A stretch of DNA of 23,978 nucleotides from positions 1-23,978 of IMG/VR virus record IMGVR_UViG_3300033182_000158; one strand, 5' to 3'. The translations under genes were made by a program, and so were the position numbers. Shown here piece by piece: positions 890 through 23,975 of this stretch (position 1 is its first letter; every line of letters begins with the position of its first letter). The DNA comes from a virus. The notes under the pieces are model-generated. The model was not told where the DNA came from. It made no database searches and worked only from the letters and a program-made list of their open reading frames with translations.

Positions 890-3800
890 TTATACTTTTC
901 CTACGACTACTTCTATTACACCCTTGTTATCGTCGTCTTTATTTTCAAGGGCTTTACCTATTACTGTTCCAACGCCTGGACTGTTACTTGCAACAGCATA
1001 ACCAGGAATTGCTGCCGTTACTAACAAGTCACCTTTCTTAACTCTACCAAGTACTTTACAAGGAACACGTCCAGTTAACGCTAAGTCTACCACATATTCT
1101 GCTTTTAAATCTGCGTTCATCAAATGCGCTGGATTTGTTGAAACAACGCCTGCTACTCTATGATCACCTTTAGAACTTGTTGCAGTAACTTCTGCTTCTC
1201 CGCCAAATACAAGAACTGTTCCTGGTTCGTAATCTGCATCAGCAATGTAACGTTCTGCCAAGTCAGCATATTTTGCTTGAGTAGCAGTACCATTAAATAC
1301 TGTTGCATACATTGTATTCCAACGATCAGTATTTGAACCAATGTTCTGTGTGCCAACACCGTTTGGTAAAATGCTTCCTGCAACATCTGCTGTAAATGTA
1401 ACAGTATCTGTTGCAGCATCACCTATTGTAGTATTTCCATTGACTGTTAAATTTCCGGTTATTGTAGTGTTACCTGCAATAGTAGTATTACCAGTTGCGC
1501 CGTCAACACTAAACTTAGTTACTTGTGTTGGGCTAGTAGCGTCTTTGATAGTAAAGTCACCTGCCGAAGTAATGATTACATTTCCGTCTATGTTAACATT
1601 GTCAGTAAAGTCTACACTTGTAGTCTTAACAGTTACACGCGGTGTACCATCTGCAATAAGCAATATTGTATTTGCAGCAGCACCTGTAAATCCGTTACCT
1701 GCTCCTAAACCAATGCCTGTAGCATTTGCGGCTGCGTCTCCTTTTTCACTTTCGCATTCAATAAAATTAGCATATATCCAGTCAGCAGCAACAAATCCTT
1801 CACCTGCATAGCTAGAACCAGCTTGTGAAGCACTTTCGGCAGTTATACCAGTATCACCAACATCGATGCTGCCAGGAATGTCTGTTATTAAACTTGCACT
1901 TGTTGTGCCAGCAGCACTTAGTATTGTTGCGCCACCTGGAGTTTTTAAACTAATAGTTGTACTAGCAAGTGTTAATGCATCATATCCGCCTAATTTATAT
2001 TTACTAGCATCAAGTGTGCCGTCTGCTGTACGTCTTGCAATAGTGTTAGGACCGGTTCCTGTCGATACTGCTGTGGTTGCATATAGCCCTGTATCCGTTT
2101 TAATTAACGCAGAACCTACTGTTGTTGTTGCAGTAGCAGTAGTAGGAGTTCCTAAACTAGTACTAGTTGTAGTATTTGTTATAGCACTGCTAGTATTAAA
2201 AGATATTCCAGCCGTTGGAGTACTTGCAACACTTCGTACATATACCGTATTTTCTAAATAAACAGTTCCTTGTACTGTACCGGTTATTGTATTTGCGCCT
2301 TGTGTTTGAGATAATGTATTACCGTCAGTAACACTAACACGACTTGGGAATACAAGTTTTACTATATCAGGATAAGTCCATTCTCTACTATTAAAATCTC
2401 TGTCTTCTAAGCCTGAACCGTATTTTAAAACGTCGCTGTATGCAACATTTTCTGGATCACCTACTGTTTCAACAGTACCTGTACCTACTCCTGTACTTCC
2501 TGATTTTCTAAATACCAATCCTACAGTATTAGAACTAGCACCAATTAAAGTAAAGTTTGTAGTGCCTATAGTTTTAATCATGTAATGTGTATCATTATTA
2601 GCAGCAGTCAACGAAGTTGCATTAACTGTTGTTCCAGCAGTTTGTCTGCCGTATACACAATATTGTCCAATGTCTTGTAATTCTGCAAATACTAGCCCGT
2701 TGTCTTTAACACGAACATATCCGCTTGTAGTTTCAAAGTTCCAATCGGAGAACTTAGCAAGACCTAAATCTGCTTGAACTTTTGTAGCACTTCCACTCCA
2801 ACCTGATACAGCATTGTCTTCGTCAAAAGTATTTGCATTTTGCATTGAAAGTTTACTTTGAGAAATAGCAGCTGAACTATTGACATCGGCATTTACAATA
2901 GTATCATTTTCTATTTGGAAATCAATAGTTGCGCCAGCGGCTGTTCTTGAAACGGACCAGTTAATAACGCTGGTTCCTGCTTCACTAGCATTTGCCCATT
3001 CATCAACTGGCCCATCTTCGATAACAGAAGATACAGAACCACCTGGTATGTCATAAATTGTTTCGGTCGTTAAAAATACACCTAACGTAGGAGTATAAGT
3101 TATTATATTAACTGATCCTAAAATAGGATCTGTAGCTGTTTCAACATCTACAATTACGCCTGTTTTTGTAGGAGATCCCGATGCCGGCAATCCAATAGTA
3201 TTTCCAGCACTCCATGTTCCTCCACTAGGAGGAGTAACTATAATACGCTTTTTACCAGTCGCAACAAACAGATCATTCGCTGCGGTAGAATTTAGTTCTG
3301 TATTACGTAAATCTTCTAATTGGTCAAAATCATTAACTTTACCGTCCACATAATTTTTATTAGTAGCAGCAGTACCATCTGATCCTGGCAACTCTAGATT
3401 AGTAATTCTATTGTTTCTAGAACCGTCTGGTTGCGATCCCATATCGATATCGCCTTCCATTGCTGTCTCACCGTTTAGCGCCAAGAAGCCTGGACCTATT
3501 CTGTTGCCACCCGCTCCTGGAGGGTCAATTGGACTTTCTGATTTTACATTATAACCTAATACCCTATTAATATAATTGCCTGTTGCCTTTTCTGTTGGAA
3601 CAGCACTGCCTGATTCGTCTGTGAACCCGTCATCTGCTGAGAATTCATCGATTGTAACACCTTTCTTAAAGCCCAATGAATTAGCACCTGTTAAACCGAT
3701 GTCACCAGCAAATTCAATTGAACCTGTTGCTTGGTCTACGGTGAAGAACTTACCAACTCTAAAGAAGCCGTATTGATCCGTAGACATCCAGAATACACGT

Positions 3801-6800
3801 CCTTTTCTACGTTCCCATACTTGAGCACTTGTGGCAGTAGGAGCATCGGTGTATGCATCTGCTAAAGCATTTTCAGGATCACCTAACAATACGTTTGGAT
3901 AGTTAGAATCATTAAATCCGCCAGTACCTATTTGTGTAAAGTCATGACCTGTTGCACGGCATAATGAAATAGCGATAGTAATTTCAGCAGTTGCTCCTGT
4001 AGTTAAACCAGCTCTAATAACTCTACTACTTGCTGGAACAGCAGAGTTGAGTCCAGATGGTTGTGGGCTTGGTTTTACATTTGTTCCTGCAACGTCAGCA
4101 AAAGTAATATATACAAATGCTCCGCTATCGTCATAGTTTGTAACTCGATGCATTTTGCCGTCCCAGTGGAAAATCATACCACCAGCATAACCTGCATCTC
4201 CTGGTTGAAGACCTGCGTTATCTCTTAACAAACGTGTGACATTGTCAGTATTTGTAATTTCTAAAATTGCAAGTTTAGTATCTCCCGCTGTTGATCCGTA
4301 ACCTCCACTTAGGTTTGCAATATCAACTTCTAACTGAATAAAGTCATAACCTGCTTCCATGCCTGCTAAGATCTCATCAGCAGCGAGCGGCTGGCTTAAC
4401 GAATCTGCATTTGAAAATGATAAACTTCTGTATGTTACTAAATCAGATTCGTCGAAGTTAATAGCAGTCGATGGTCTTGTTTCTAACCTTGCCGGATCTC
4501 TTACTCCTTCAAAAGATTGGGTAAAGTTATGTCTAAATTCTATAATTGTTCCATTGCCTACAGTATCTTGTAATGATCCATAAAAATCATTTGCTGATGC
4601 TTCGTCTGCTCTTATGTCTAATTTATAGACTACATAACTTTGTGTGATTTGTGGCACAAGTCCGTCGTTCCAAACTGTATCCACATCAAATGTTAGATTA
4701 GAACCGGTCCATCCTGCAACGCTTCCGCCAGCAGTAGTCAATGTGTCTCCAGGAGCATATCCGTAGCCTGGCGCCAACGGAGTAACACTTGTTGCCGCAC
4801 CTGCTCCGTCAATAACAACAGTAAAGGTTGCATTTACACCGCCACCTGTAACTGGCATTATATAAGTTCCAGCAGTTCTTGTTCCATCTGCGCCGCTTAT
4901 CGAAGCATTATCAATAGTTTTAACACTACCAACTGCAACGTCACTAGCAGACTCTCCTATGTTCCCGTCATTATCGGTATCGGATATATTCTGAACTTGT
5001 GAAATAATATAATTTAATGACCCAGTTATTCCACCATGATCTATAGTAATTTGACTATTTACTGTTGGAGGTACAGCCATATCAGTTACATAAATGGTTG
5101 TATCGTCGAACGCATTTGGATAATCGCCGATAATGCTAAATGCCTTACAAGGTTGAATCATAGGATCTTTTAATGTAACCTGATCAGGTATTTCATTTGG
5201 ATCTGCACCTTCTGCTACTAATCCAAAGAATCCGTAACCATTTGATCCGTTGGTACTTCTGATCTCTGAACCGTTCTTAGCGTAGTAGGCAGCATGACAG
5301 TAATATGTAAACATCGACACCATTTCTGATAAAGCACCGTTTGTAGTAACAAGACCGTACCCTAGGTCATTAATCTGTGTAAAGTCGTTACCAAGCATTG
5401 ATCTGTTACCAGCAGTTTGTAAGAAAATATTTTCTCCTGTGCTTCCGGTATATCCGCTGCCACTATTTGAACCTGAATCTAAATAAATTGTTACAGTACC
5501 TGCTGCACTATCATAATTTGAAATAGCATTTACTTGATAACGAACGCCGTCTAAGTAAAAAGGACATGGTAACTCTGGAGCACGAATGAACAATCCTTGA
5601 CCTTGTTCGCTCTCTAACTCTAGTTCAAATGCCGAATTGACTGCTGTGATCTGTGTAGGTATATTTCCAACAAATGCGTCTACAAACATACCACCTGTAA
5701 ATGCTTTGCGATTTCTGCTTCGAGAGAAACTAGAACCGGTTTGTATATACGGTGATTTAGTTAAAATTTGTCCTTCTGGATCTAGCACAACCATAAATCC
5801 GCCATGCCCTTGTACAGTTACATTACGTACAATAGTGGCATCACTCATCATGAATACATCTACACCATCGTCGCTATTACGTTTTGGCGGATTGTAACTT
5901 GGATTAAATGCATATGTAATTATATCGATTAAATTGCCTACAATTGAAACTGTACCTGATTCTCCGGAACCTACAGAAATGTCAGGTGCTACTGAGGTAT
6001 TTTGTGTCGGCGCAACACTAATTAATAACGATGATGCTAGAGTCGAAATGTAGCTAATTGCAGATGATGTTATTGTTTTATCATCACCAAATTCAGCATC
6101 GTCGAATTGATTAATGTAGTTAGAATAATAATCACCTTGTGCTTCTAATGTATATTCTTGTCCGCCGCGAACTAAGTCTGTACTGATAGCATCGATGATT
6201 AATCCAACGTCTCTTGCACACTTATCTTGGTCATAAACAAATGTAACTGTATTATCTAAGTAATCAATAGTACTGTCTATTATAGTTGATCTACTAGAAT
6301 TAATAGCAGTTTGCGCAGATTGCAAAGTTGCAGACACGCCTAGCGAAGATAGATTTGGAGTTGTAGCAGTTAAGCCAGCAACAGTTCCGTTGTCAATCGC
6401 ATCGCTTATTATTGTTACTAATGCTATTAATCTGTTACCTTCTGCACTAGTTGCATTTGCTCCTGTAGTATTTTGTGTGTCTAAATTAGTCGAAGATTTA
6501 GTAACAGTTACTCCTCTTACTATTTGATCAACAATTACTCCTAAACGTCCATATGATGCAACAGTTGCAGCAGTTTCTCCTACTCCTAATTGACTTGCAG
6601 TTCCTACAAAATAACTTGTAGCAGAAGTTACAGTAGCACTATCGCCACCGTACAAAATATCATATGTTAATGCATCAACGATATAGCCTACGTCTCTAGA
6701 ACACTTAGTTGTATTATAATCTAGGAACGGATAGTTGTCGCCGATCCATGCAATTATTTCTGAACGTATGAAGTCTCTGTTATTCTGTAATCTAGTTGCC

Positions 6801-9800
6801 GCGTCGTCTGCATTGCCGTACCCACTTGGTAAGATACTTGGTGCTGGAAAAGAAAGAGCATCTGGAGTATTATTATCTATAATATCTACAATTTCATTAA
6901 ATGCACTGTTTGATCTTGTTTCAGCAGTTCCAGTTATATCTGGTAATGCTGCAACTAAATCTTTAGCACTGTAGTATGTAGTACCTGGGGAACCTACGGT
7001 TACTGAAGAACCAGTTAATGCTGCTATAGTATTAGTTTTTTCAAAATTTAAATTATAAGCATTGTTTGCACGTTGATATGCTAAACCTGCTGTAATAGCA
7101 TTATAGTTAGTTCCTAATGCTATATCGTAACCAACAGCATCTAAGATTAATCCAATATCTCGTTCGCATTTAACTTTACTATACAATAAATCTTGATAGT
7201 TATTATTAATATAGTATAATACCTCAGACGCTATAAATGATTTATTTTGTTGAAGAACTTCGGCTGCTACCGGATAGTTGCCAGAATTAAATGGTAAAGA
7301 AACTGTATCTGGAAGTACGCTAACATTACGTTCAGGATCTGTTAAGTAATGTCTACCAAAGTATCCTTGGAATTCTCCGTTTTGATTATAAAAAGGAGCA
7401 CCTGCAGTTGTAAGTGTTAATCCGTCAAACTCTGCATCTCTGTAGAAATAAATGCTGGACCAAGGAGACTGCGATACACGATCTTTCGGACGTATAATTA
7501 CACGTCTAAATTCGTCACCTTTTAAAGAAACATTATTAGCAAGTCTAATTGGTAAATCTTCTTCGTATGTTCCTGATTCTACAAATATAGTAACTTGTTT
7601 GGTTTTAACAAAGTTTCCGTATTTTACAGGTTCACCTACTTCAAAATCTTTACCGTTTAATTGTACTAATTGGAAAGTATCATTATTAGATACCGTTCCA
7701 TCATTTGAAGTTAAACTTACAATTCGACCTTGCGCACCTGACACTACACCTACCATTATCTTACCAGGCAGTGTATCTATATTTGTTGGATCACCCTGGT
7801 CTACATATGTACGACTACCATTATCTAATACAAGTTTATACGTACTACCGTAAACCACATCACCACCAACTTCGATACCATTTTGAATAATATTCAATAT
7901 TAAATCAAATCTGTTACCTATTGCTGCTCGTTCTGTGCTTCCTGCATTTGGACTATCGAATGTCTGTGTTATTTTTATAGTCTCAAAGTCTTCGTTTCTA
8001 GGTTGGTACACAACACCCATCTTACCGCCAGTAGTATAGTTAGTATAAGCACTAATATCCCATAATTGTAATAAGAATGGATCTGTGTATAATTCGAAAG
8101 TATCAGCATCGATAACTTTAACATAAGCAGATTGACCTTCGATTTCTGTCATACCACCCATGTCTTTAAATATAACTTGTTCGCCGTCAATTAACCCGTG
8201 ATTGGTAGTTGTGGTTACACGAGCTCGTTCTTGACTAACTCCTGTTCTTGCGACTGAATCGATTGATTTTTCTCTGTATAGTTTGTTTTGTAAAACAGCA
8301 TCTACTATATCTCTAGTAACAGTTATCGCATCTACCGTTTCGTTGATTTGCTGTGAACCAATTGCATACCTTGCACTAGTATTAGAATAATATCTTTCTG
8401 CTGCTTGTCGTGTTAGATAATTTGCTGTTAAACCTCTTTTTATATCAAAGCGAATAGCGTCAAGAATTAACCCTGTATCACGCTCACATAAGTCAATATT
8501 ATAAACAAAATCTGGATACGTAAATGCAATATATGCTGTAATTTCTTTTTGAATGTATTCTCTGTTTATTTTAATTAAGTCATGTGCTTGTGTATATACC
8601 GGAGTATTAATTTGTGCTATTGTTACATTCGCAGTAGAATCTCCATTGTCTTTTGTAACAGTTTGAAAATACGGACCTGGTTCTGCTGGAGAAGTAGTAA
8701 TAATTTCTTCTGCTCTTTTTGCAGCGGCATTAATTGTACGATACGCATAGTTAAGTGCGGATCCTTCTTTGCCCGGTGGCACACCGGTCATTAAGTCGTC
8801 GCCATCCATACTTACAAAAATATTAACTGTAGATGAATAACCAGAGTTATCTACATAAAATTTAGTTGCCGCTTGTAAATCGTCTGAACCGTTCACAACA
8901 CCAAATCCTGATACATCGCCTGGGTGATCTGAAAGAGTTAACACTCCGGTCATTGTATCGCCTTGTCTACGAACAACGCTCTTACGTGGCATAGCAACAT
9001 CTGATAAGAAGTTTCCTTCTAGTGTGCTGTCATAAGCAGCATCAGTCATTGTATGTGTATCATCAGGATCAATCGTACCTGACAATTGAATTTTGTCGAT
9101 ATCTACTGCTGTATCGTCTTCTTGAGTTGCATCATCATAATCTAAAAATACTGCTAGTTGATCTGTACTAATATATCTTAAAAAATAAACTGGTTGTGCA
9201 ACACCTGTTCCTGCACCTACACCTGTAGCAACAAAACGTGTCCCTACAGTATTTTCGTCAGCACCAATAGAAACAAAGTTTGTTGATCCTAAATCTTGAA
9301 TTATATATGTTGCACCTACAACAAAAGACCCAGCTGCAACTTCAGTTTTTAAGTTTAACGGGTCATTATATATAGAATTAAAAACAAATGCAGTTCCGTT
9401 AATAGTAGAGTCGTAACCGTGAGATAATACTTCGATATTTCCACTAATGTAACGATTAATCTCTAATATATACTGATCTGTATTTCTAGGTTCTGCCGCA
9501 ACACGAATTGGTAATCCAGAACTAATATAACGTCTGTCTGCATAACCTTTAGTAATAACAAGGTCATCGATAGTAATACTTGAACTATGAGCAGAATTAT
9601 AATTGCTAACAGCAGTTGCAGATATAGCAACATTGGCAATAGCATTATTTCCTACATTTAACGGACCACCTAATTGTGGTTTTAAATCATCTGATAATTT
9701 TGTAAATGCCGTAGAAATTACTAATTTACCTGGAACAGAGTAACTAAATGTAATCGTATCCGCTGCATCTTCATCTAAGGCAGAGTTAGATGCAAGCGTT

Positions 9801-10021
9801 ACTAATTGTAATTCGGTCCCTGCATCATTTACTAGCGGAATGGTATTAGGAGTTAGTTCGTCAGGAGTATCACCTAACGCAGTAAAACTAATTGCTCCAC
9901 CCTGTCCAAATACAGCATAAACTTCTTGGAAATTTTCGTTTACTTTACGAAATGATTCGCGTATGCTATCACCAGTGCCGTCATTACCCTCAACACCAAT
10001 ATTAATATCTTGTCTTGCCAT
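890..10021 (-). CDS. Giant tail-fibre/virion structural protein, 3043 aa
   Basis: The product is a very long virion protein, probably part of the distal tail or a fibre. The N-terminus (MARQDINIGVEGNDGTGDSI, then RESFRKVNENFQEVY) is the typical start of marine T4-like structural proteins. Fibre-type AATK-YVD modules occur near residues 352-391 and 2188-2226. Residues about 400-440 and 806-870 look like a right-handed beta-helix (pectin-lyase-like) segment. A module with the signature C-RD-G-I-DA--YD recurs four times (near 511, 952, 1107 and 1268). A second motif (GTTNF--IGA--NTVG) occurs near 243-273 and 2484-2515. The C-terminus (about 2850-3043) begins with triplet-like TTI-G-N repeats and then YADLAERYIADADYEPGTV, resembling the C-terminal domains, some autoproteolytic (Peptidase_G2-like), of phage fibres. 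That last assignment is tentative. The start has GGAG about 7 nt upstream and a late box at 10068-10075. Confidence 0.9.
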   Translation of the reverse strand: MARQDINIGVEGNDGTGDSIRESFRKVNENFQEVYAVFGQGGAISFTALGDTPDELTPNTIPLVNDAGTELQLVTLASNSALDEDAADTITFSYSVPGKLVISTAFTKLSDDLKPQLGGPLNVGNNAIANVAISATAVSNYNSAHSSSITIDDLVITKGYADRRYISSGLPIRVAAEPRNTDQYILEINRYISGNIEVLSHGYDSTINGTAFVFNSIYNDPLNLKTEVAAGSFVVGATYIIQDLGSTNFVSIGADENTVGTRFVATGVGAGTGVAQPVYFLRYISTDQLAVFLDYDDATQEDDTAVDIDKIQLSGTIDPDDTHTMTDAAYDSTLEGNFLSDVAMPRKSVVRRQGDTMTGVLTLSDHPGDVSGFGVVNGSDDLQAATKFYVDNSGYSSTVNIFVSMDGDDLMTGVPPGKEGSALNYAYRTINAAAKRAEEIITTSPAEPGPYFQTVTKDNGDSTANVTIAQINTPVYTQAHDLIKINREYIQKEITAYIAFTYPDFVYNIDLCERDTGLILDAIRFDIKRGLTANYLTRQAAERYYSNTSARYAIGSQQINETVDAITVTRDIVDAVLQNKLYREKSIDSVARTGVSQERARVTTTTNHGLIDGEQVIFKDMGGMTEIEGQSAYVKVIDADTFELYTDPFLLQLWDISAYTNYTTGGKMGVVYQPRNEDFETIKITQTFDSPNAGSTERAAIGNRFDLILNIIQNGIEVGGDVVYGSTYKLVLDNGSRTYVDQGDPTNIDTLPGKIMVGVVSGAQGRIVSLTSNDGTVSNNDTFQLVQLNGKDFEVGEPVKYGNFVKTKQVTIFVESGTYEEDLPIRLANNVSLKGDEFRRVIIRPKDRVSQSPWSSIYFYRDAEFDGLTLTTAGAPFYNQNGEFQGYFGRHYLTDPERNVSVLPDTVSLPFNSGNYPVAAEVLQQNKSFIASEVLYYINNNYQDLLYSKVKCERDIGLILDAVGYDIALGTNYNAITAGLAYQRANNAYNLNFEKTNTIAALTGSSVTVGSPGTTYYSAKDLVAALPDITGTAETRSNSAFNEIVDIIDNNTPDALSFPAPSILPSGYGNADDAATRLQNNRDFIRSEIIAWIGDNYPFLDYNTTKCSRDVGYIVDALTYDILYGGDSATVTSATSYFVGTASQLGVGETAATVASYGRLGVIVDQIVRGVTVTKSSTNLDTQNTTGANATSAEGNRLIALVTIISDAIDNGTVAGLTATTPNLSSLGVSATLQSAQTAINSSRSTIIDSTIDYLDNTVTFVYDQDKCARDVGLIIDAISTDLVRGGQEYTLEAQGDYYSNYINQFDDAEFGDDKTITSSAISYISTLASSLLISVAPTQNTSVAPDISVGSGESGTVSIVGNLIDIITYAFNPSYNPPKRNSDDGVDVFMMSDATIVRNVTVQGHGGFMVVLDPEGQILTKSPYIQTGSSFSRSRNRKAFTGGMFVDAFVGNIPTQITAVNSAFELELESEQGQGLFIRAPELPCPFYLDGVRYQVNAISNYDSAAGTVTIYLDSGSNSGSGYTGSTGENIFLQTAGNRSMLGNDFTQINDLGYGLVTTNGALSEMVSMFTYYCHAAYYAKNGSEIRSTNGSNGYGFFGLVAEGADPNEIPDQVTLKDPMIQPCKAFSIIGDYPNAFDDTTIYVTDMAVPPTVNSQITIDHGGITGSLNYIISQVQNISDTDNDGNIGESASDVAVGSVKTIDNASISGADGTRTAGTYIMPVTGGGVNATFTVVIDGAGAATSVTPLAPGYGYAPGDTLTTAGGSVAGWTGSNLTFDVDTVWNDGLVPQITQSYVVYKLDIRADEASANDFYGSLQDTVGNGTIIEFRHNFTQSFEGVRDPARLETRPSTAINFDESDLVTYRSLSFSNADSLSQPLAADEILAGMEAGYDFIQLEVDIANLSGGYGSTAGDTKLAILEITNTDNVTRLLRDNAGLQPGDAGYAGGMIFHWDGKMHRVTNYDDSGAFVYITFADVAGTNVKPSPQPSGLNSAVPASSRVIRAGLTTGATAEITIAISLCRATGHDFTQIGTGGFNDSNYPNVLLGDPENALADAYTDAPTATSAQVWERRKGRVFWMSTDQYGFFRVGKFFTVDQATGSIEFAGDIGLTGANSLGFKKGVTIDEFSADDGFTDESGSAVPTEKATGNYINRVLGYNVKSESPIDPPGAGGNRIGPGFLALNGETAMEGDIDMGSQPDGSRNNRITNLELPGSDGTAATNKNYVDGKVNDFDQLEDLRNTELNSTAANDLFVATGKKRIIVTPPSGGTWSAGNTIGLPASGSPTKTGVIVDVETATDPILGSVNIITYTPTLGVFLTTETIYDIPGGSVSSVIEDGPVDEWANASEAGTSVINWSVSRTAAGATIDFQIENDTIVNADVNSSAAISQSKLSMQNANTFDEDNAVSGWSGSATKVQADLGLAKFSDWNFETTSGYVRVKDNGLVFAELQDIGQYCVYGRQTAGTTVNATSLTAANNDTHYMIKTIGTTNFTLIGASSNTVGLVFRKSGSTGVGTGTVETVGDPENVAYSDVLKYGSGLEDRDFNSREWTYPDIVKLVFPSRVSVTDGNTLSQTQGANTITGTVQGTVYLENTVYVRSVASTPTAGISFNTSSAITNTTTSTSLGTPTTATATTTVGSALIKTDTGLYATTAVSTGTGPNTIARRTADGTLDASKYKLGGYDALTLASTTISLKTPGGATILSAAGTTSASLITDIPGSIDVGDTGITAESASQAGSSYAGEGFVAADWIYANFIECESEKGDAAANATGIGLGAGNGFTGAAANTILLIADGTPRVTVKTTSVDFTDNVNIDGNVIITSAGDFTIKDATSPTQVTKFSVDGATGNTTIAGNTTITGNLTVNGNTTIGDAATDTVTFTADVAGSILPNGVGTQNIGSNTDRWNTMYATVFNGTATQAKYADLAERYIADADYEPGTVLVFGGEAEVTATSSKGDHRVAGVVSTNPAHLMNADLKAEYVVDLALTGRVPCKVLGRVKKGDLLVTAAIPGYAVASNSPGVGTVIGKALENKDDDNKGVIEVVVGKV

Positions 10022-11550: not shown

Positions 11551-11793
11551 CCGTTTTAGTTCGTGTAATAAAAACTCTTTAGGATCGCACCAATATGTTT
11601 CAAACACAGGTTCTCCTGGCCCAGTAATCATACAGTCAATTACTTCGCAACGTTTAAACCAAATCTTTTTATTTGATATAAAACAACGTCTAGGCAAAAG
11701 TGACAACTTCTGTTGGTGCCCAATCCGTCGATTGTTGAACATGTAAAAGTCCATTGCTTCTTTTTGAAAGTTTATTTTCTCTGGTATTGGCAT
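11548..11793 (-). CDS. Hypothetical protein, up to 81 aa, overlapping the uvdE 3' end
   Basis: The frame opens at the ATG at 11793, 104 nt inside the uvdE gene, and ends at 11548. An internal ATG at 11754 (MDFYMFNNRRIGHQQKL) would shorten the overlap to 65 nt and may be the real start; neither start has a clear SD. The body (CFISNKKIWFKRCEVIDCMI, then TGPGEPVFETYW) looks like a genuine small protein, with three Cys residues before that GPGEP turn and one after. No function is recognised. It is cotranscribed with uvdE and the 95-residue gene. Confidence 0.6.
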   Translation of the reverse strand: MPIPEKINFQKEAMDFYMFNNRRIGHQQKLSLLPRRCFISNKKIWFKRCEVIDCMITGPGEPVFETYWCDPKEFLLHELKR

Positions 11794-12814
11794 AATTGTA
11801 TAATTCTAATGATGCAAGATTCTTGCATTTACTTTCAACCATAATGTCTGCGGTATCACGGAAACTCAATGCCCAATCGTTAACAGCATGATTCCACATG
11901 TAATCGCTATGGGCACGAAGTTTTTGTTTCTTGTATCCGGCAGCAAGCAATGCAGTCATATCAGGTTTAAAGAACTCGCTATGTCCTGCAACATAATCTT
12001 CCCTGCTCACACTGTAATGGATAACCGGTCGAACACCACGCCACGAATCAATTATGCGCTTATATCGATCATCGGTTGATAGAATGTATTCTCCACTAGA
12101 GACCCAGTGGTGGTGTATATCCAATACGAGTGCAACGTCTCCGGCAAGGTCCAAACTTGCGTCAATCCCCCACGACATTTCATCGTTCTCAATTGTAATT
12201 GTATTTCTTGCTTCGGGTGATAAGCGGGTAAGGACGTCCCGTATACCTTGTGGACCTCTGCGACCCGCAATGTGGACATTGACTTTAAAGTCTTGGAATG
12301 ATTGACCGTAGCCCATCCAGCGTACCATGTCGACATGATATTCAAACTCCTCTATAGAACGAGCGACAATGTCGTCATTGTCGCTTGCAAGAACAGTAAA
12401 CTGACCAGGGTGAAAAGACAAGCGAACATCAAGATTCCGTGCAAGATCACCCACTCTAGCAAATTCTCGCTCAAGGTACCTTCTTGTATCAGGTGTTTGC
12501 CAAAAGTAAGACCAACTAGGCTCAGTATAAACAGGCAGGATATCACTACCAAGGCGGACCATTCGTAAATCATTTGGTAAACTCCCTACGTAATCAATTA
12601 GTCGATAAATGGATTTGATGTTGTGTTCCATAATGTCCCACAACCGTTGTTCAGCAACTTCGCGTGTTTGACTGTTTAACCATTTAACAGTAGTTGCTTT
12701 AGTATTTAAAGGACGTTGAATCTCCTCAAGAAGTTTCTTCTTGATAGATTGATCGTGATGCATATACTTGCAAGCGAAGCCTATGCGGTTTGTATTTGAA
12801 TCAAAAGTTTCCAT
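11690..12814 (-). CDS. uvdE: UV damage endonuclease UvdE
   Basis: An endonuclease of the UvdE/UVDE family, which nicks DNA 5' of UV photoproducts and other lesions using divalent metal ions in a TIM barrel. Family motifs are all visible: IGFACKY near residue 11, SFHPGQF at 133-139, NVHIAG at 179-184, ENDE at 209-212, LDIHHHW at 231-237, HSDY at 302-305 and VESKCKNLA at 326-334. Metal ligands of the family (His, Glu and Asp in these motifs) are present, so it looks active. The family core ends near residue 340; the last 34 residues overlap the next ORF and look less conserved in character. The ATG at 12814 overlaps the preceding gene by 34 nt, and a perfect host-type promoter lies just upstream. 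A role in repairing sunlight damage to phage DNA fits a surface-ocean virus. Confidence 0.93.
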   Translation of the reverse strand: METFDSNTNRIGFACKYMHHDQSIKKKLLEEIQRPLNTKATTVKWLNSQTREVAEQRLWDIMEHNIKSIYRLIDYVGSLPNDLRMVRLGSDILPVYTEPSWSYFWQTPDTRRYLEREFARVGDLARNLDVRLSFHPGQFTVLASDNDDIVARSIEEFEYHVDMVRWMGYGQSFQDFKVNVHIAGRRGPQGIRDVLTRLSPEARNTITIENDEMSWGIDASLDLAGDVALVLDIHHHWVSSGEYILSTDDRYKRIIDSWRGVRPVIHYSVSREDYVAGHSEFFKPDMTALLAAGYKKQKLRAHSDYMWNHAVNDWALSFRDTADIMVESKCKNLASLELYNYANTRENKLSKRSNGLLHVQQSTDWAPTEVVTFA

Positions 12815-13491
12815 GTAGTTTCCCAGTTTTGTACATTATAGCAATACCCTCGATTGTTGTCAAGGATAGCCTTTGCCAAAGGATAATCATTTCCACCTTT
12901 ATTCATTTTATCACCAAAGAAGTGAATTTCGTCTATATCTAGAAAGTCGTTAAGTACCTGACTTTTATCAAATCCTTTCGGTGCGATATCGAGTCCTGTT
13001 TCTCCACCTACTGTTGCTTGTAGATTTTGAAATAATTTGTTAAAATTGTCGGAGATAGTTTTTCGTTCATTGTGTTCTTCGTCCCACTGAACATATTCTG
13101 CACGTTCTTCGTAATTAGCATTTCGCCCAACGACACTAAAATTTACCATACCAGGACGTTGTTCAAGATGTAGTCCTGTTCTTTTTGGAAATTTACTTTG
13201 TGTAAGTTGGTCCTGCAGCCATTGTTCAGCTTCTTCTGGCAATTTCCAGTTATTGTTATGGACATTTTCACCTCTGTACCAAATACTATTTCCGTTACAA
13301 TTATAGACATAATCAGCGTTAGTACAAATGTATTCTCCAACTTGTTCTACGGTTTTAGGATAATCACTTCCGGTAACAAGATAAACGTAATTATTGTCTA
13401 CAAAGTTTTCAAACCATAATTGAAACATAGAGTTCATTACATTGCGACTAGGAGTTAGTGTCCCGTCTACGTCAAAAATATATCTTTTCAT
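12781..13491 (-). CDS. Phosphomannomutase-like HAD-family protein, 236 aa
   Basis: The protein matches eukaryotic-type phosphomannomutase (HAD superfamily, Cof/IIB-like cap), which interconverts mannose-6-P and mannose-1-P. Visible motifs are DVDGTLTPSR at residues 7-16 (D7 nucleophile, D9 acid/base), TGSDYPKTVEQ at 40-50, NCNG at 64-67, RPGMVNFSVVGR at 112-123 (sugar-phosphate cap motif), LDIAPKGFDKS at 167-177 and HFFGDKMNKGGNDY at 190-203. I chose the ATG at 13491 rather than 13524 because it sits in an ATGA overlap with the stop of the glycosyltransferase gene and puts the catalytic Asp close to the N-terminus, as in the family. Next to a glycosyltransferase, sugar activation for glycosylation is a plausible role. 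A general sugar phosphatase activity cannot be excluded. Confidence 0.85.
   Translation of the reverse strand: MKRYIFDVDGTLTPSRNVMNSMFQLWFENFVDNNYVYLVTGSDYPKTVEQVGEYICTNADYVYNCNGNSIWYRGENVHNNNWKLPEEAEQWLQDQLTQSKFPKRTGLHLEQRPGMVNFSVVGRNANYEERAEYVQWDEEHNERKTISDNFNKLFQNLQATVGGETGLDIAPKGFDKSQVLNDFLDIDEIHFFGDKMNKGGNDYPLAKAILDNNRGYCYNVQNWETTWKLLIQIQTA
12835..12863 (-). promoter_or_regulatory. Perfect sigma-70 promoter before uvdE
   Basis: TTGACA at 12863-12858, a 17-nt spacer and TATAAT at 12840-12835 form an exact consensus promoter inside the 3' end of the phosphomannomutase-like gene. It ends 21 nt before the uvdE ATG. It would let uvdE be made early, independently of the operon. Confidence 0.75.
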
Positions 13492-14351
13492 ACCCAATTT
13501 TTTATTACCCAAGGATCTTCGCAATATTGAGGATTAGGATCTCCGTGGAATACACATATACAACATTCAGGCCTAGGTTCGACATGTTCTATATGCTTAA
13601 ATTTTCGGTTGCCTTTCATTCCGCCTGCTGCAAATTCTTTTGATTTTCTAACTTCCCACTTCCAACTTAGTATCCAACTGTCTGGATATAATGTTGCTTG
13701 ATGATTTCTAGTAGCCTCAAATAACCAATCCTGATCTCCAAAGAGCCTACGCTGTATCTGTTTTTGATTCTTTTCAAATTCTTCCCAAACATGATGCAGT
13801 TGCCCTGTTTTGAAACGTACTACGCTACTATTGTATTTTTGCCATTTTGGACGCATAGCTCTTGTAAAATCTCTAACAGTACACCAGTGATCAGGTTGAT
13901 ATGTAAAAAGTTTATCTATGTTTCCTGCTATAACTACATCTAAATCAACATAAAGAATAGTTCCGTTAATAGGTAAATCTTTAGAATACATATAAGGCTT
14001 ACACCACCAACCTTCTAAACCTTTCGGCAAAGGAATAATTTTTACATCAGGGTCAATTCCATTCGGATCGTCAGTCAGACAAACAAACGTGTAATCAAGA
14101 GTACAGTTCCTCTTAACCATATTATAAAGTCGATTAACATAATCAAATGAATACTTCGTGCCATGCTTTAAACATAGCACGTAGTTATGATTCTTAATCA
14201 AAGGATTAGGAGAACGGTCGTCGTAAAGTCCGAGATCTTGAGCATCATTGACCATCTGAGTCAATGCTTTTTCTGCTTTTTCGCGACGACGCTGTTCTTT
14301 AATGAGTTTCCATTCTTCTTTAGAATATTGCCTCTTGTCTATTTTTGCCAA
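13488..14351 (-). CDS. GT8-like glycosyltransferase, 287 aa
   Basis: A nucleotide-sugar glycosyltransferase of GT-A fold. It has a DxD metal/nucleotide motif in LYVDLDVVIAGNIDKLF (DLD at residues 136-138), a GDQDWL motif at 205-210 and a C-terminal CVFHGDPNP at 266-274, the order seen in GT8-like families. I start it at TTG 14351 because AGAGGT lies 7 nt before it and the upstream stop is only 2 nt away. The first ATG in frame (14402) would overlap the upstream gene by 49 nt. The N-terminus is a charged helix (KEQRRREKAEK). Its stop overlaps the phosphomannomutase-like ATG (ATGA). Acceptor is unknown: DNA, virion protein or host glycan are all possible. Confidence 0.8.
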   Translation of the reverse strand: MAKIDKRQYSKEEWKLIKEQRRREKAEKALTQMVNDAQDLGLYDDRSPNPLIKNHNYVLCLKHGTKYSFDYVNRLYNMVKRNCTLDYTFVCLTDDPNGIDPDVKIIPLPKGLEGWWCKPYMYSKDLPINGTILYVDLDVVIAGNIDKLFTYQPDHWCTVRDFTRAMRPKWQKYNSSVVRFKTGQLHHVWEEFEKNQKQIQRRLFGDQDWLFEATRNHQATLYPDSWILSWKWEVRKSKEFAAGGMKGNRKFKHIEHVEPRPECCICVFHGDPNPQYCEDPWVIKNWV

Positions 14352-14353
14352 TG

Positions 14354-14950
14354 TTATACCTCTAAGCGACAAATAGCATCTGCAGGAGACTCCCAATTCC
14401 AACGTGATTGTTCTGGTAATAATTCTGCATCAGAAGAAATTTTACGCTGTGCAGACATTTTAGCATCTGTTTCGTCTACTACAACCATTGCATCGTTGCG
14501 TTCGTGTTCGTATACACGTACACCTTCTACATAACAACGTCCATTTGTGATCTTATATACATAATGGTTAACGTGTTCCCAAATAAACAGTGAGCTCATT
14601 TCCATTGATACACCGCTTGGAAGAACACGAAGCGTGCCTAATACACCACCTGGTTCTGTCAGTGCCGGAACTTGGTCAATTAATTCTAAACGAGGATCAT
14701 TCGCTGGTAGTACAGTTACGTGATCAAAATAATATTCTAAGAATTTTTTAATAGGTTTAGTAGCATCGCCAAATGCTACAATCCAGCCCATATCATCAGG
14801 TGTACCTGCAAATGTCAGTTCTACTGAGCGATCATAACCGTGAACGCTGGCGCACTCACCTGGACTACCATCTGGTTCTTTATCAAAGAATTGTGCGTGT
14901 CCGCATGGCAGATTTCTAAATACTTTTGTGCTTTTTACTTTAATAGCCAT
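14354..14950 (-). CDS. 6-pyruvoyl-tetrahydropterin synthase / QueD-like protein, 198 aa
   Basis: Resembles the PTPS/QueD family, which acts on dihydroneopterin triphosphate in pterin or 7-deazaguanine (queuosine) synthesis. The pieces in order are LPCGHAQFF (H18, zinc ligand), GECASVHGYDRS (C33 as candidate catalytic Cys, H37 zinc ligand), VAFGD at 58-62, FDHVTVLPANDP at 75-86 (D76-H77) and VSMEMSSLFIWE at 114-125 with E117 in the place of the pterin-binding Glu. The usual HGH is HGY here, so the third zinc histidine is replaced by Tyr39. I recall the HGY form from a divergent subgroup. A strong SD (AGGAGGC) fixes the start. It leads the operon with glycosyltransferase, phosphomannomutase-like protein and UvdE. 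Other preQ0 genes are not in this window. Confidence 0.8.
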   Translation of the reverse strand: MAIKVKSTKVFRNLPCGHAQFFDKEPDGSPGECASVHGYDRSVELTFAGTPDDMGWIVAFGDATKPIKKFLEYYFDHVTVLPANDPRLELIDQVPALTEPGGVLGTLRVLPSGVSMEMSSLFIWEHVNHYVYKITNGRCYVEGVRVYEHERNDAMVVVDETDAKMSAQRKISSDAELLPEQSRWNWESPADAICRLEV

Positions 14951-22225: not shown

Positions 22226-22303
22226 TGGAGTGGCGAGTCGGATTCGAACCGACGGCTTTAGAGTTTTGCAGACTCTTCCCTTGGGCCTCTCGGGCATCGC
22301 CAC
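22226..22303 (-). tRNA. tRNA-Cys (GCA), copy 1
   Basis: Acceptor GTGGCGA/TCGCCAC, discriminator T, encoded CCA. Anticodon loop CTGCAAA gives GCA. Differs by one base (D-stem) from the copy at 23817-23894. Confidence 0.93.
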
Positions 22304-22309
22304 AATGTT

Positions 22310-22384
22310 TGGCGCAGGACCAGGGATTCGAACCCCGTCTTTCGGTTTTGGAGACCGACGTGCTGCCGTTAACACTAGTCCTAC
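22310..22384 (-). tRNA. tRNA-Gly (TCC), copy 1
   Basis: Acceptor GTAGGAC/GTCCTGC with one U-G pair, discriminator G, encoded CCA. Anticodon stem TCGGT/ACCGA with loop CTCCAAA, anticodon TCC. A diverged second copy is at 23901-23975. Confidence 0.92.
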
Positions 22385-22481: not shown

Positions 22482-22538
22482 TTATTGGAAGTTAGACTTC
22501 ATCCACTTCCAGTATTCGCTTACGTCATTGTAACACAT
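22482..22538 (-). CDS. 18-codon micro-ORF after the attenuator
   Basis: The ATG at 22538 is preceded by a textbook SD, AAAGGAG, seven nt upstream, and the frame MCYNDVSEYWKWMKSNFQ ends in TAA at 22484-22482, just before tRNA-Tyr. It lies immediately downstream of the terminator hairpin, so it is translated only if the terminator is passed. It is rich in aromatic residues and Cys. It may be a real micro-peptide, a ribosome-loading site that protects the RNA, or a second leader. The SD strength is the main evidence. Confidence 0.5.
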   Translation of the reverse strand: MCYNDVSEYWKWMKSNFQ

Positions 22539-22556
22539 TGTATTACTCCTTTCAAT

Positions 22557-22589
22557 AAAAAACCCCCGGAGTATTTCTACTTCGGGGGT
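22557..22589 (-). terminator. Intrinsic terminator of the tRNA attenuator
   Basis: On the minus strand ACCCCCGAAGTA pairs with TACTCCGGGGGT around a GAAA loop (12 positions, one A-C mismatch) and runs straight into a T-tract. On the plus strand no T-tract follows, so the direction is clear. Its left arm can instead pair with an upstream arm at 22618-22631. Confidence 0.85.
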
Positions 22590-22631
22590 CTTGTGTAACT
22601 TTGTACTAGGACTAAATCACAAGAGACCCCC
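22584..22631 (-). promoter_or_regulatory. Antiterminator of the tRNA attenuator
   Basis: Arm A GGGGGTCTCTTGTG (22631-22618) pairs with arm B CACAAGACCCCC (22595-22584): 12 bp with a 2-nt bulge, 22-nt loop. Arm B shares ACCCCC with the terminator's left arm, so the two folds exclude one another. Arm A overlaps the last codons and stop of the leader ORF. Confidence 0.7.
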
Positions 22632-22924: not shown

Positions 22925-23000
22925 TGGCGGAGAGTGAGGGATTCGAACCTCCGTCTTCCGGGTTATGAGCCCGGTAGTCTGACCACTGACGTACCCCGCG
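22925..23000 (-). tRNA. Met-type tRNA (CAT), degenerate and partly initiator-like
   Basis: Anticodon stem CCGGG/CCCGG with loop CTCATAA gives CAT; encoded CCA. The 5' end CGCGGGG and the GGG/CCC anticodon stem are as in bacterial initiator tRNA. The 3' acceptor strand ACTCTCC does not match it: positions 1, 3 and 7 mismatch. The T-stem has an A-C mismatch and the D-stem a C-U mismatch. It may be a chimera or a decayed gene. Confidence 0.6.
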
Positions 23001-23002
23001 AT

Positions 23003-23147
23003 AAAAAAATTTAGTAGTAGCATGGTTTGCTATTCTCTTGCCGATCGATGTGTGCAAGTCTATGACTGCACGTTACTAGTATCACGATCCTTAAGCCTCG
23101 AACAAGGTTTGGCTTGCGGGCCTCACGAGCCACGCTACTACTAAAAA
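23003..23147 (-). ncRNA. Structured RNA of unknown class within the tRNA array
   Basis: A 16-bp stem (23145-23130 with 23025-23010; one G-U) closes a domain of about 145 nt that ends in seven U residues (23009-23003). Inside are a hairpin at 23071-23052 (GTGCAGTC / GACTTGCAC, one bulged base, AUA loop), an outer helix GATCG/CGATC (23089-23085 with 23047-23043) and smaller possible hairpins. It starts right after the CCA of tRNA-Glu and ends just before the Met-type tRNA, so tRNA processing would release it. No long ORF fills it. T4 encodes two stable RNAs (C and D) of similar size in its tRNA cluster; any relation is only by analogy. Confidence 0.7.
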
Positions 23148-23223
23148 TGGTACACCCTAGGGGATTCGAACCCCTGTAACATCCGTGAAAGGGATGTATC
23201 CTAGGCCTCTAGATGAAGGGTGC
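23148..23223 (-). tRNA. tRNA-Glu (TTC)
   Basis: Acceptor GCACCCT/AGGGTGT with a terminal G-U, discriminator A, encoded CCA. Anticodon stem CATCC/GGATG, loop CTTTCAC, anticodon TTC. T-arm AGGGG-TTCGAAT-CCCCT. Confidence 0.94.
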
Positions 23224-23816: not shown

Positions 23817-23894
23817 TGGAGTGGCGAGTCGGATTCGAACCGACGGCTTTAGAGTTTTGCAGACTCTTCCCTTGGGCCTCTCAGGCATCGCCAC
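23817..23894 (-). tRNA. tRNA-Cys (GCA), copy 2
   Basis: Identical to copy 1 at 77 of 78 positions; the change turns a D-stem C-G pair into U-G. Acceptor, anticodon GCA, T-arm and CCA are intact. Confidence 0.93.
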
Positions 23895-23900
23895 AATGTT

Positions 23901-23975
23901 TGGCACAGGGACACAGATTTGAACTGCGCCTTTTGGTTTTGGAGACCAACGTGCTGCCGCTAACACTATCCCTGC
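23901..23975 (-). tRNA. tRNA-Gly (TCC), copy 2
   Basis: Acceptor GCAGGGA/TCCCTGT with terminal G-U, discriminator G, encoded CCA. Loop CTCCAAA gives TCC. T-arm CGCAG-TTCAAAT-CTGTG has one G-U. It is clearly related to copy 1 but differs at many stem positions with pairing kept. Confidence 0.9.

Follow-up and report, generated by a model that had tools for sequence, protein, structure and literature searches.

A small phage RNA family from viral tRNA arrays with candidate symmetric kissing loops

The gap between tRNA-Glu and tRNA-Met

The window, which is the whole 23,978 bases of the IMG/VR virus record IMGVR_UViG_3300033182_000158, carries 13 transfer RNA (tRNA) genes, all on the minus strand. 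An RNA element fills the gap between two of them, tRNA-Glu and a Met-type tRNA (Table 1). A first-pass annotation had described it as an unclassified structured RNA lying directly between these tRNAs and on their strand; this description stands, with no matching Rfam family and with covariation in relatives. The closing stem, P1, which had been called nearly perfect, spans 16 base pairs (bp), 15 of them Watson-Crick and one G-U. The U7 tail that had also been reported is present, but it is peculiar to the window copy: relatives lack a U-run after P1, as in L077, where P1 abuts the next tRNA.

Folding the window element by itself is not decisive. On the transcribed strand the fold scores z = -1.95, with 7 of 200 shuffles equally good, and the minimum-energy structure matches the conserved fold (P1, P2, P3, P4, P5) only partly. 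Since the fold is only mildly better than those of shuffles, relatives are required, and the comparative data settle the structure.

Table 1. The RNA element of the window, its parts and its flanking tRNA genes
Feature	Position in window	Strand	Remarks
Whole RNA element	23003-23147	minus	fills tRNA-Glu/tRNA-Met gap; 5' end near 23147, 3' end near 23003
tRNA-Glu	23148-23223	minus	upstream flank; same strand as RNA element
tRNA-Met	22925-22999	minus	downstream flank; same strand as RNA element
P1 closing stem, 5' arm	23130-23145	minus	partner 23010-23025; covariation
Junction strand GCUCGUG	23124-23130	minus	conserved; G23130 closes P1, CUC is J1/2, GU starts P2
Hairpin P2	23107-23126	minus	GU/AC and GGC/GCC; loop CCGCAA (23114-23119), without palindrome
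Conserved AACCUUGU	23102-23109	minus	P2 3' strand, junction base and start of P3
P3 5' arm UUGUUC	23100-23105	minus	partner 23030-23035
P4 5' arm GAUCGUG	23083-23089	minus	partner 23043-23050, U23048 bulged; 4 pairs double-changed in relatives
L3 octamer UACUAGUA	23074-23081	minus	self-complementary; in P4/P5 internal loop; proposed to pair with its counterpart in a second RNA copy
P5 apical hairpin GUGCAGUC AUA GACUUGCAC	23052-23071	minus	in relatives, both bases differ at all 5 modelled pairs
P4 3' arm CAUCGAUC	23043-23050	minus	partner 23083-23089
P3 3' arm GAAUAG	23030-23035	minus	partner 23100-23105
Junction strand CAAA	23026-23029	minus	follows P3; consensus YAAA
P1 closing stem, 3' arm	23010-23025	minus	partner 23130-23145; covariation
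U7 stretch	23003-23009	minus	follows P1; peculiar to window copy

A conserved family missing from Rfam

The first relatives came from contigs of related viruses, drawn in through neighbouring proteins. The match in L077 is weak but lies in the same position, a tRNA-Leu/tRNA-Ser gap (nhmmer E 2e-4), and the L025 member was found by inspecting tRNA gaps. A three-part pattern built from shared motifs, GCTCGTG-N-AACCTTGT-N-ATAGYAAAC, matched 53 viral contigs. The same pattern matched once (L157) across 257 Gb of genomes from bacteria and archaea, with neither a tRNA nor the fold; we judge this match to be chance, and the cellular scan doubles as a false-positive control for the viral matches. Three more scans and the removal of one false positive brought the collection from IMG/VR to 58 distinct members of about 120-150 nucleotides (nt). 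L242 and candidates with a poor P1 were discarded as false positives, and weak model matches of about 14 bits in L054, L067 and L130 were disregarded. The search patterns account in part for the invariance of GCTCG, ACCTTGT and TAGYAAAC, and they also build in some of the family-wide conservation of the GCUCGUG strand.

A covariance model (R1) was built from one branch of the family, subgroup B, and included no member of subgroup A, the branch of the window's close relatives. It matches the members of subgroup A, all absent from the model, among them the window at 23149-23007 (41.9 bits, E 3e-7) and L077 (43.1 bits), as well as the divergent L209 (E 3e-6), L221, L239 and L259. Matches to the L234 and L252 types are weaker (E about 0.002), and L247 is borderline (E 0.08). 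Some shortlisted members, L237 for example, are unmatched by R1, and their membership rests on motif and stem.

At the gathering cut-off, Rfam 15 holds no family for the element in the window, and the weak matches at a relaxed E-value are at chance level; across the window and 13 member loci, only tRNAs and one separate transfer-messenger RNA (tmRNA) reach the cut-off. ARAGORN and Rfam detect no cloverleaf or tRNA-like domain in the element, in agreement with the earlier view that it is neither tRNA nor tmRNA. When the tRNA-RNA-tRNA stretch and seven relatives were compared by blastn with 50,697 phage records, only tRNAs or chance matches came up, and the family is undescribed in the open-access literature searched (subscription papers lay outside this search). 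The window element is thus a member of a conserved RNA family missing from Rfam 15.

The conserved fold

Members share a long closing stem P1, a three-way junction and the hairpins P2 and P3/P4. Conserved junction strands run through the family (GCUCG…ACCUUGU…AUAGYAAAC), and the junction linkers are CUC (P1 to P2), a single C (P2 to P3) and YAAA (P3 to P1). Covariation of P1 across relatives, on which the first-pass annotation had staked its description, is strong: compensatory changes occur at 17 of 18 pairs in 25 sequences, and P1 arms form 15.3 of 17 pairs with their own partners vs 10.2 when arms are swapped between members. The variable pairs of P3 behave in the same way (1.88 of 2 paired vs 1.08 after swapping).

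An alignment of subgroup A, comprising 9 close relatives of the window, contains 42 pairs, 94.7% of which are standard (shuffled, 78.8%), with double changes at 27 pairs vs 14.4 in shuffles. Its covariation score of 0.513 vs 0.213 for shuffled alignments is reached by none of 500 shuffles and collapses once pairing partners are slid. Subgroup A supports P2, P3, P4 and P5 beyond P1, and subgroup B gives P1, P2 and P3. The whole-family MAFFT alignment misplaced AACCUUGU between the subgroups; it was therefore used for P1 only, with a separate alignment for each subgroup. Counts of G-U vs A-C in P1 (16 vs 11) are too near to fix the strand by themselves, and the strand is assigned because of the tRNAs and the motif. 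This comparison shows that the RNA folds into a long P1 stem and a conserved three-way junction that carries the arms P2 and P3/P4.

Palindromic loops

In most members, self-complementary stretches lie in the P2 loop (L2) and in the far-end loop of P3/P4 (L3). The first-pass annotation, otherwise borne out, had missed both of these loops, as well as the wide distribution of the family and its occurrence away from tRNAs. L2 palindromes include GGAUCC, GGCGCC, UGCGCA, GCUAGC, UGUACA, UGAUCA, GUGCAC, GGGCCC, CCCGGG, GCAGCUGC, ACCCGGGU and AACCGGUU; those seen at L3 are UUGCAA, CUGCAG, CUUGCAAG, UGGUUGCAACCA, GAUGGCCAUC and GCUCGAGC, with UACUAGUA, UCCUAGGA and UACCGGUA in subgroup A. Among the window's relatives the sequence of L3 varies and the palindrome is always kept. 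The window copy itself retains the L3 palindrome, UACUAGUA, and lacks the one at L2.

The excess was measured on 26 representatives less than 80% identical to one another, against 2000 shuffles and with kinship ignored. P2 loops contain palindromes of at least 6 nt in 14 of 26 representatives (2.2 expected) and of at least 4 nt in 23 (9.8 expected). For L3 the whole P3 domain was taken rather than the loop alone, and palindromes of at least 6 nt occur in 25 of 26 (14.0 expected) and of at least 8 nt in 16 (4.3 expected). No shuffle among the 2000 equalled any of these four counts. Flanking DNA, used as a control, has no excess (22 of 52 vs 23.9 expected), and P1 arms are depleted (3 palindromes vs 11.9 expected). 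With a 70% identity cut, applied to an earlier set and leaving 12 representatives, L2 has 9 palindromes vs 3.5 expected (2 of 2000 shuffles) and L3 has 11 vs 6.2 expected (4 of 2000).

About ten distinct palindromic cores occur at L2, so the two halves have repeatedly changed in concert. Without a spacer, a palindrome is unable to fold on itself, and its pairing would have to join two molecules. Kretsch et al. applied the same palindrome-switching argument to loop L9.3 of the OLE RNA and L21a of the GOLLD RNA, where it was confirmed by cryo-electron microscopy (PMC12286853).

Several observations weigh against this reading of the loops. The group A octamer UACUAGUA is nearly invariant and was included in one of the search patterns, so common ancestry accounts for much of its frequency; at L3 the argument is carried by the variants and by group B. 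P2-loop palindromes are missing from the window copy, its close relatives L105 and L125, and L109, so L2 pairing is not universal, and L119 has no palindrome at L3. The shuffle tests, moreover, take no account of phylogeny.

Genomic context

Every one of the 619 tRNAs in the member loci shares the strand of the RNA. Of the 58 members, 40 have a tRNA no more than 100 nt away, often directly against the RNA, and 28 are flanked on either side by tRNAs at distances of up to 250 nt. Seven members occupy loci without tRNA genes, between protein genes. In the group of L234, L259, L262 and L264 the RNA separates a Pam3 gp34-like gene from an AEP-type primase gene; in L252 its neighbours are genes of RusA and HNH type; the L209 copy lies upstream of an ERF gene; and the one in L261 adjoins uncharacterised genes. 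Because a few members thus sit between replication genes of other phages, tRNAs are inessential to the family.

The RNA behaves as a module, present or absent, since it occurs in L264 and only a plain G+C-rich hairpin fills the corresponding gap of phage DSL-LC04, whose neighbouring genes share 73-77% identity with their L264 counterparts. Two relatives without the RNA, L265 (1456-1500) and L266 (1455-1506), have a plain perfect hairpin in the same intergenic place.

Comparison with known RNAs

The closest parallels are GOLLD and ROOL, phage RNA-only multimers found near tRNA genes, whose function is not known (PMC12286853). Like the present family, both are phage-encoded (GOLLD also in prophages) and occur near tRNA islands; GOLLD switches palindromes in symmetric kissing loops (PMC12286853), a trait which the family shares as judged from sequence, and ROOL is homo-oligomeric through kissing loops, as is predicted for the family from its sequences. 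Both differ from the family in sequence and fold, and the family does not attain their length of several hundred nt: many GOLLD members exceed 800 nt and GOLLD forms a 14-mer cage, and the solved ROOL example is a 659-nt octamer. Neither Rfam model finds a match in the window and 13 member loci. We infer that the family may work like GOLLD and ROOL without being a member of either.

OLE offers a likeness in a single element: its L9.3 is a homotypic loop that switches between GGCC, GAUC and AGCU (PMC12286853). OLE is, however, a large bacterial protein-binding RNA with a single dimer interface, and it lies outside tRNA arrays.

The T4 stable RNAs C and D (species 1 and 2), 139 and 119 nt long, also lie beside tRNAs in a phage cluster, and their function is likewise not known. 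The analogy drawn with them in the first-pass annotation is good for position and fails beyond it: with filters off, the covariance model scores at best 7.7 bits in the T4 locus, not aligned to rnaC or rnaD, and RNA C has a T-arm-like 3' end, GGGUUCGAAUCCC, and a different fold. Homology to RNAs C and D was rejected on these grounds.

The loop of the HIV-1 dimerisation initiation site (DIS) is 9 nt long, and several group A P2 loops are 9-nt loops with a central hexamer (AA-UGUACA-C). The DIS has an apical-loop palindrome with purine flanks (PMC7357161); it is six nt long, several P2 loops resemble it, and L119 has GUGCAC. The DIS is part of a retroviral genome RNA, and the likeness is an analogy to one loop, with no relation implied.

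Proposed assembly and alternative explanations

Taken together, these features make it probable that phages encode here an RNA of about 120-150 nt that forms a homo-oligomer through symmetric kissing loops, working in the manner of GOLLD and ROOL. The RNA would be part of the tRNA-array transcript and be released by cleavage at neighbouring tRNA ends, for which tRNA-processing enzymes are the natural candidates. Copies would then pair through like loops, at L3 and in most members also at L2; such contacts are symmetric and would yield at least a dimer. RNAs with two different two-fold contacts each could link into chains or possibly into a closed assembly of dihedral symmetry, like those of GOLLD and ROOL. 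For the window copy, whose P2 loop, CCGCAA, has no palindrome, only the L3 contact would remain, which allows a dimer. More speculatively, the assembly might act during infection as a scaffold or container made of RNA alone, a role that has been proposed, not proven, for GOLLD and ROOL (PMC12286853).

A bolder proposal, which we hold only tentatively, is that this could be the smallest known natural family of RNA-only homo-oligomers, with a 140-nt phage RNA bearing two self-complementary loops per chain and building a symmetric ring or cage. If so, RNA self-assembly would be a recurrent phage strategy that extends beyond giant RNAs. The same palindrome switching in a sequence unrelated to GOLLD and ROOL and about five times smaller would indicate convergent evolution. 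The small size would suit nuclear magnetic resonance, crystallography and simple mutational tests, and would therefore make the question of why phages carry self-assembling RNAs directly testable.

Among the alternatives, the family may be a cis-acting monomeric element of tRNA or gene transcripts, a stable stem that insulates, stabilises or guides the processing of polycistronic RNA. The RNA does lie co-directionally inside transcripts, often flush with tRNA ends, and a plain hairpin takes its place in the DSL-LC04 gap; yet a spacer hairpin needs no three-way junction, no internal motifs and no palindromes that change and stay palindromic, and we regard this explanation as unlikely. It is also quite unlikely that the RNA is a scaffold or decoy for a phage or host protein, such as a nuclease or defence factor, bound at the conserved junction, with the palindromes being secondary or only dimerising the bound complex. 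The junction strands CUC, ACCUUGU and YAAA are the most conserved part of the RNA and would suit a binding site, but no protein gene is linked to the family, whose neighbours are mostly tRNAs and otherwise varied replication genes, and binding alone leaves the palindromes unexplained.

A packaging-motor RNA, operating like the phi29 packaging RNA (pRNA) as a ring of copies held by intermolecular loop contacts, is very improbable. The pRNA is a small phage RNA of comparable size with a three-way junction and two loop contacts, and it too assembles by intermolecular kissing loops (PMC7357161). Its contact, however, joins two different, complementary loops, 45AACC48 with 82GGUU85 (PMC7357161), whereas the family's loops are self-complementary and, by inspection, L2 and L3 differ in sequence; Rfam pRNA models find no match, and the family is found in tRNA arrays or replication regions rather than beside packaging genes. 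An intrinsic terminator with a large loop, or a chance inverted repeat, is scarcely credible despite the window stem followed by U7, being contradicted by the missing U-run in relatives, by P1 stems that abut the next tRNA and by interior motifs conserved across distant members.

Other features of the tRNA arrays and the window

Other tRNA spacers in the collected loci are also strongly folded. In L025, positions 1876-2008, directly after the family member, form a second such spacer, with a 20-bp closing stem around a tRNA-like sequence containing GGGTTCGAGTCCC; it is possibly a tRNA-like element missed by ARAGORN. In L079, nearly all of an 83-nt spacer (4686-4768) folds into a single long, perfect stem (UUAUUAUAUUGAAGCACA...) whose sequence is unrelated to the family. 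Long closing stems also occur in tRNA gaps of L043, L080 and L099, and further unclassified tRNA-array RNAs may exist.

Within the tRNA cluster of the window, the gap between tRNA-Tyr and tRNA-Gln (22520-22600) contains a strong G+C-rich hairpin, ccccggagtatttctacttcgggg, followed by a minus-strand T-run, and is terminator-like. The cluster also has tRNA-Cys and tRNA-Trp in duplicate, with the same anticodons (22226-22384 and 23817-23975). Elsewhere in the window, positions 11690-14950 group genes for a UV-endonuclease-like protein (PHROG endonuclease), a phosphomannomutase (PF03332), a glycosyltransferase and a 6-pyruvoyl-tetrahydropterin synthase (PF01242), and positions 890-10021 are a single open frame of 3043 amino acids, probably encoding a giant tail or structural protein.
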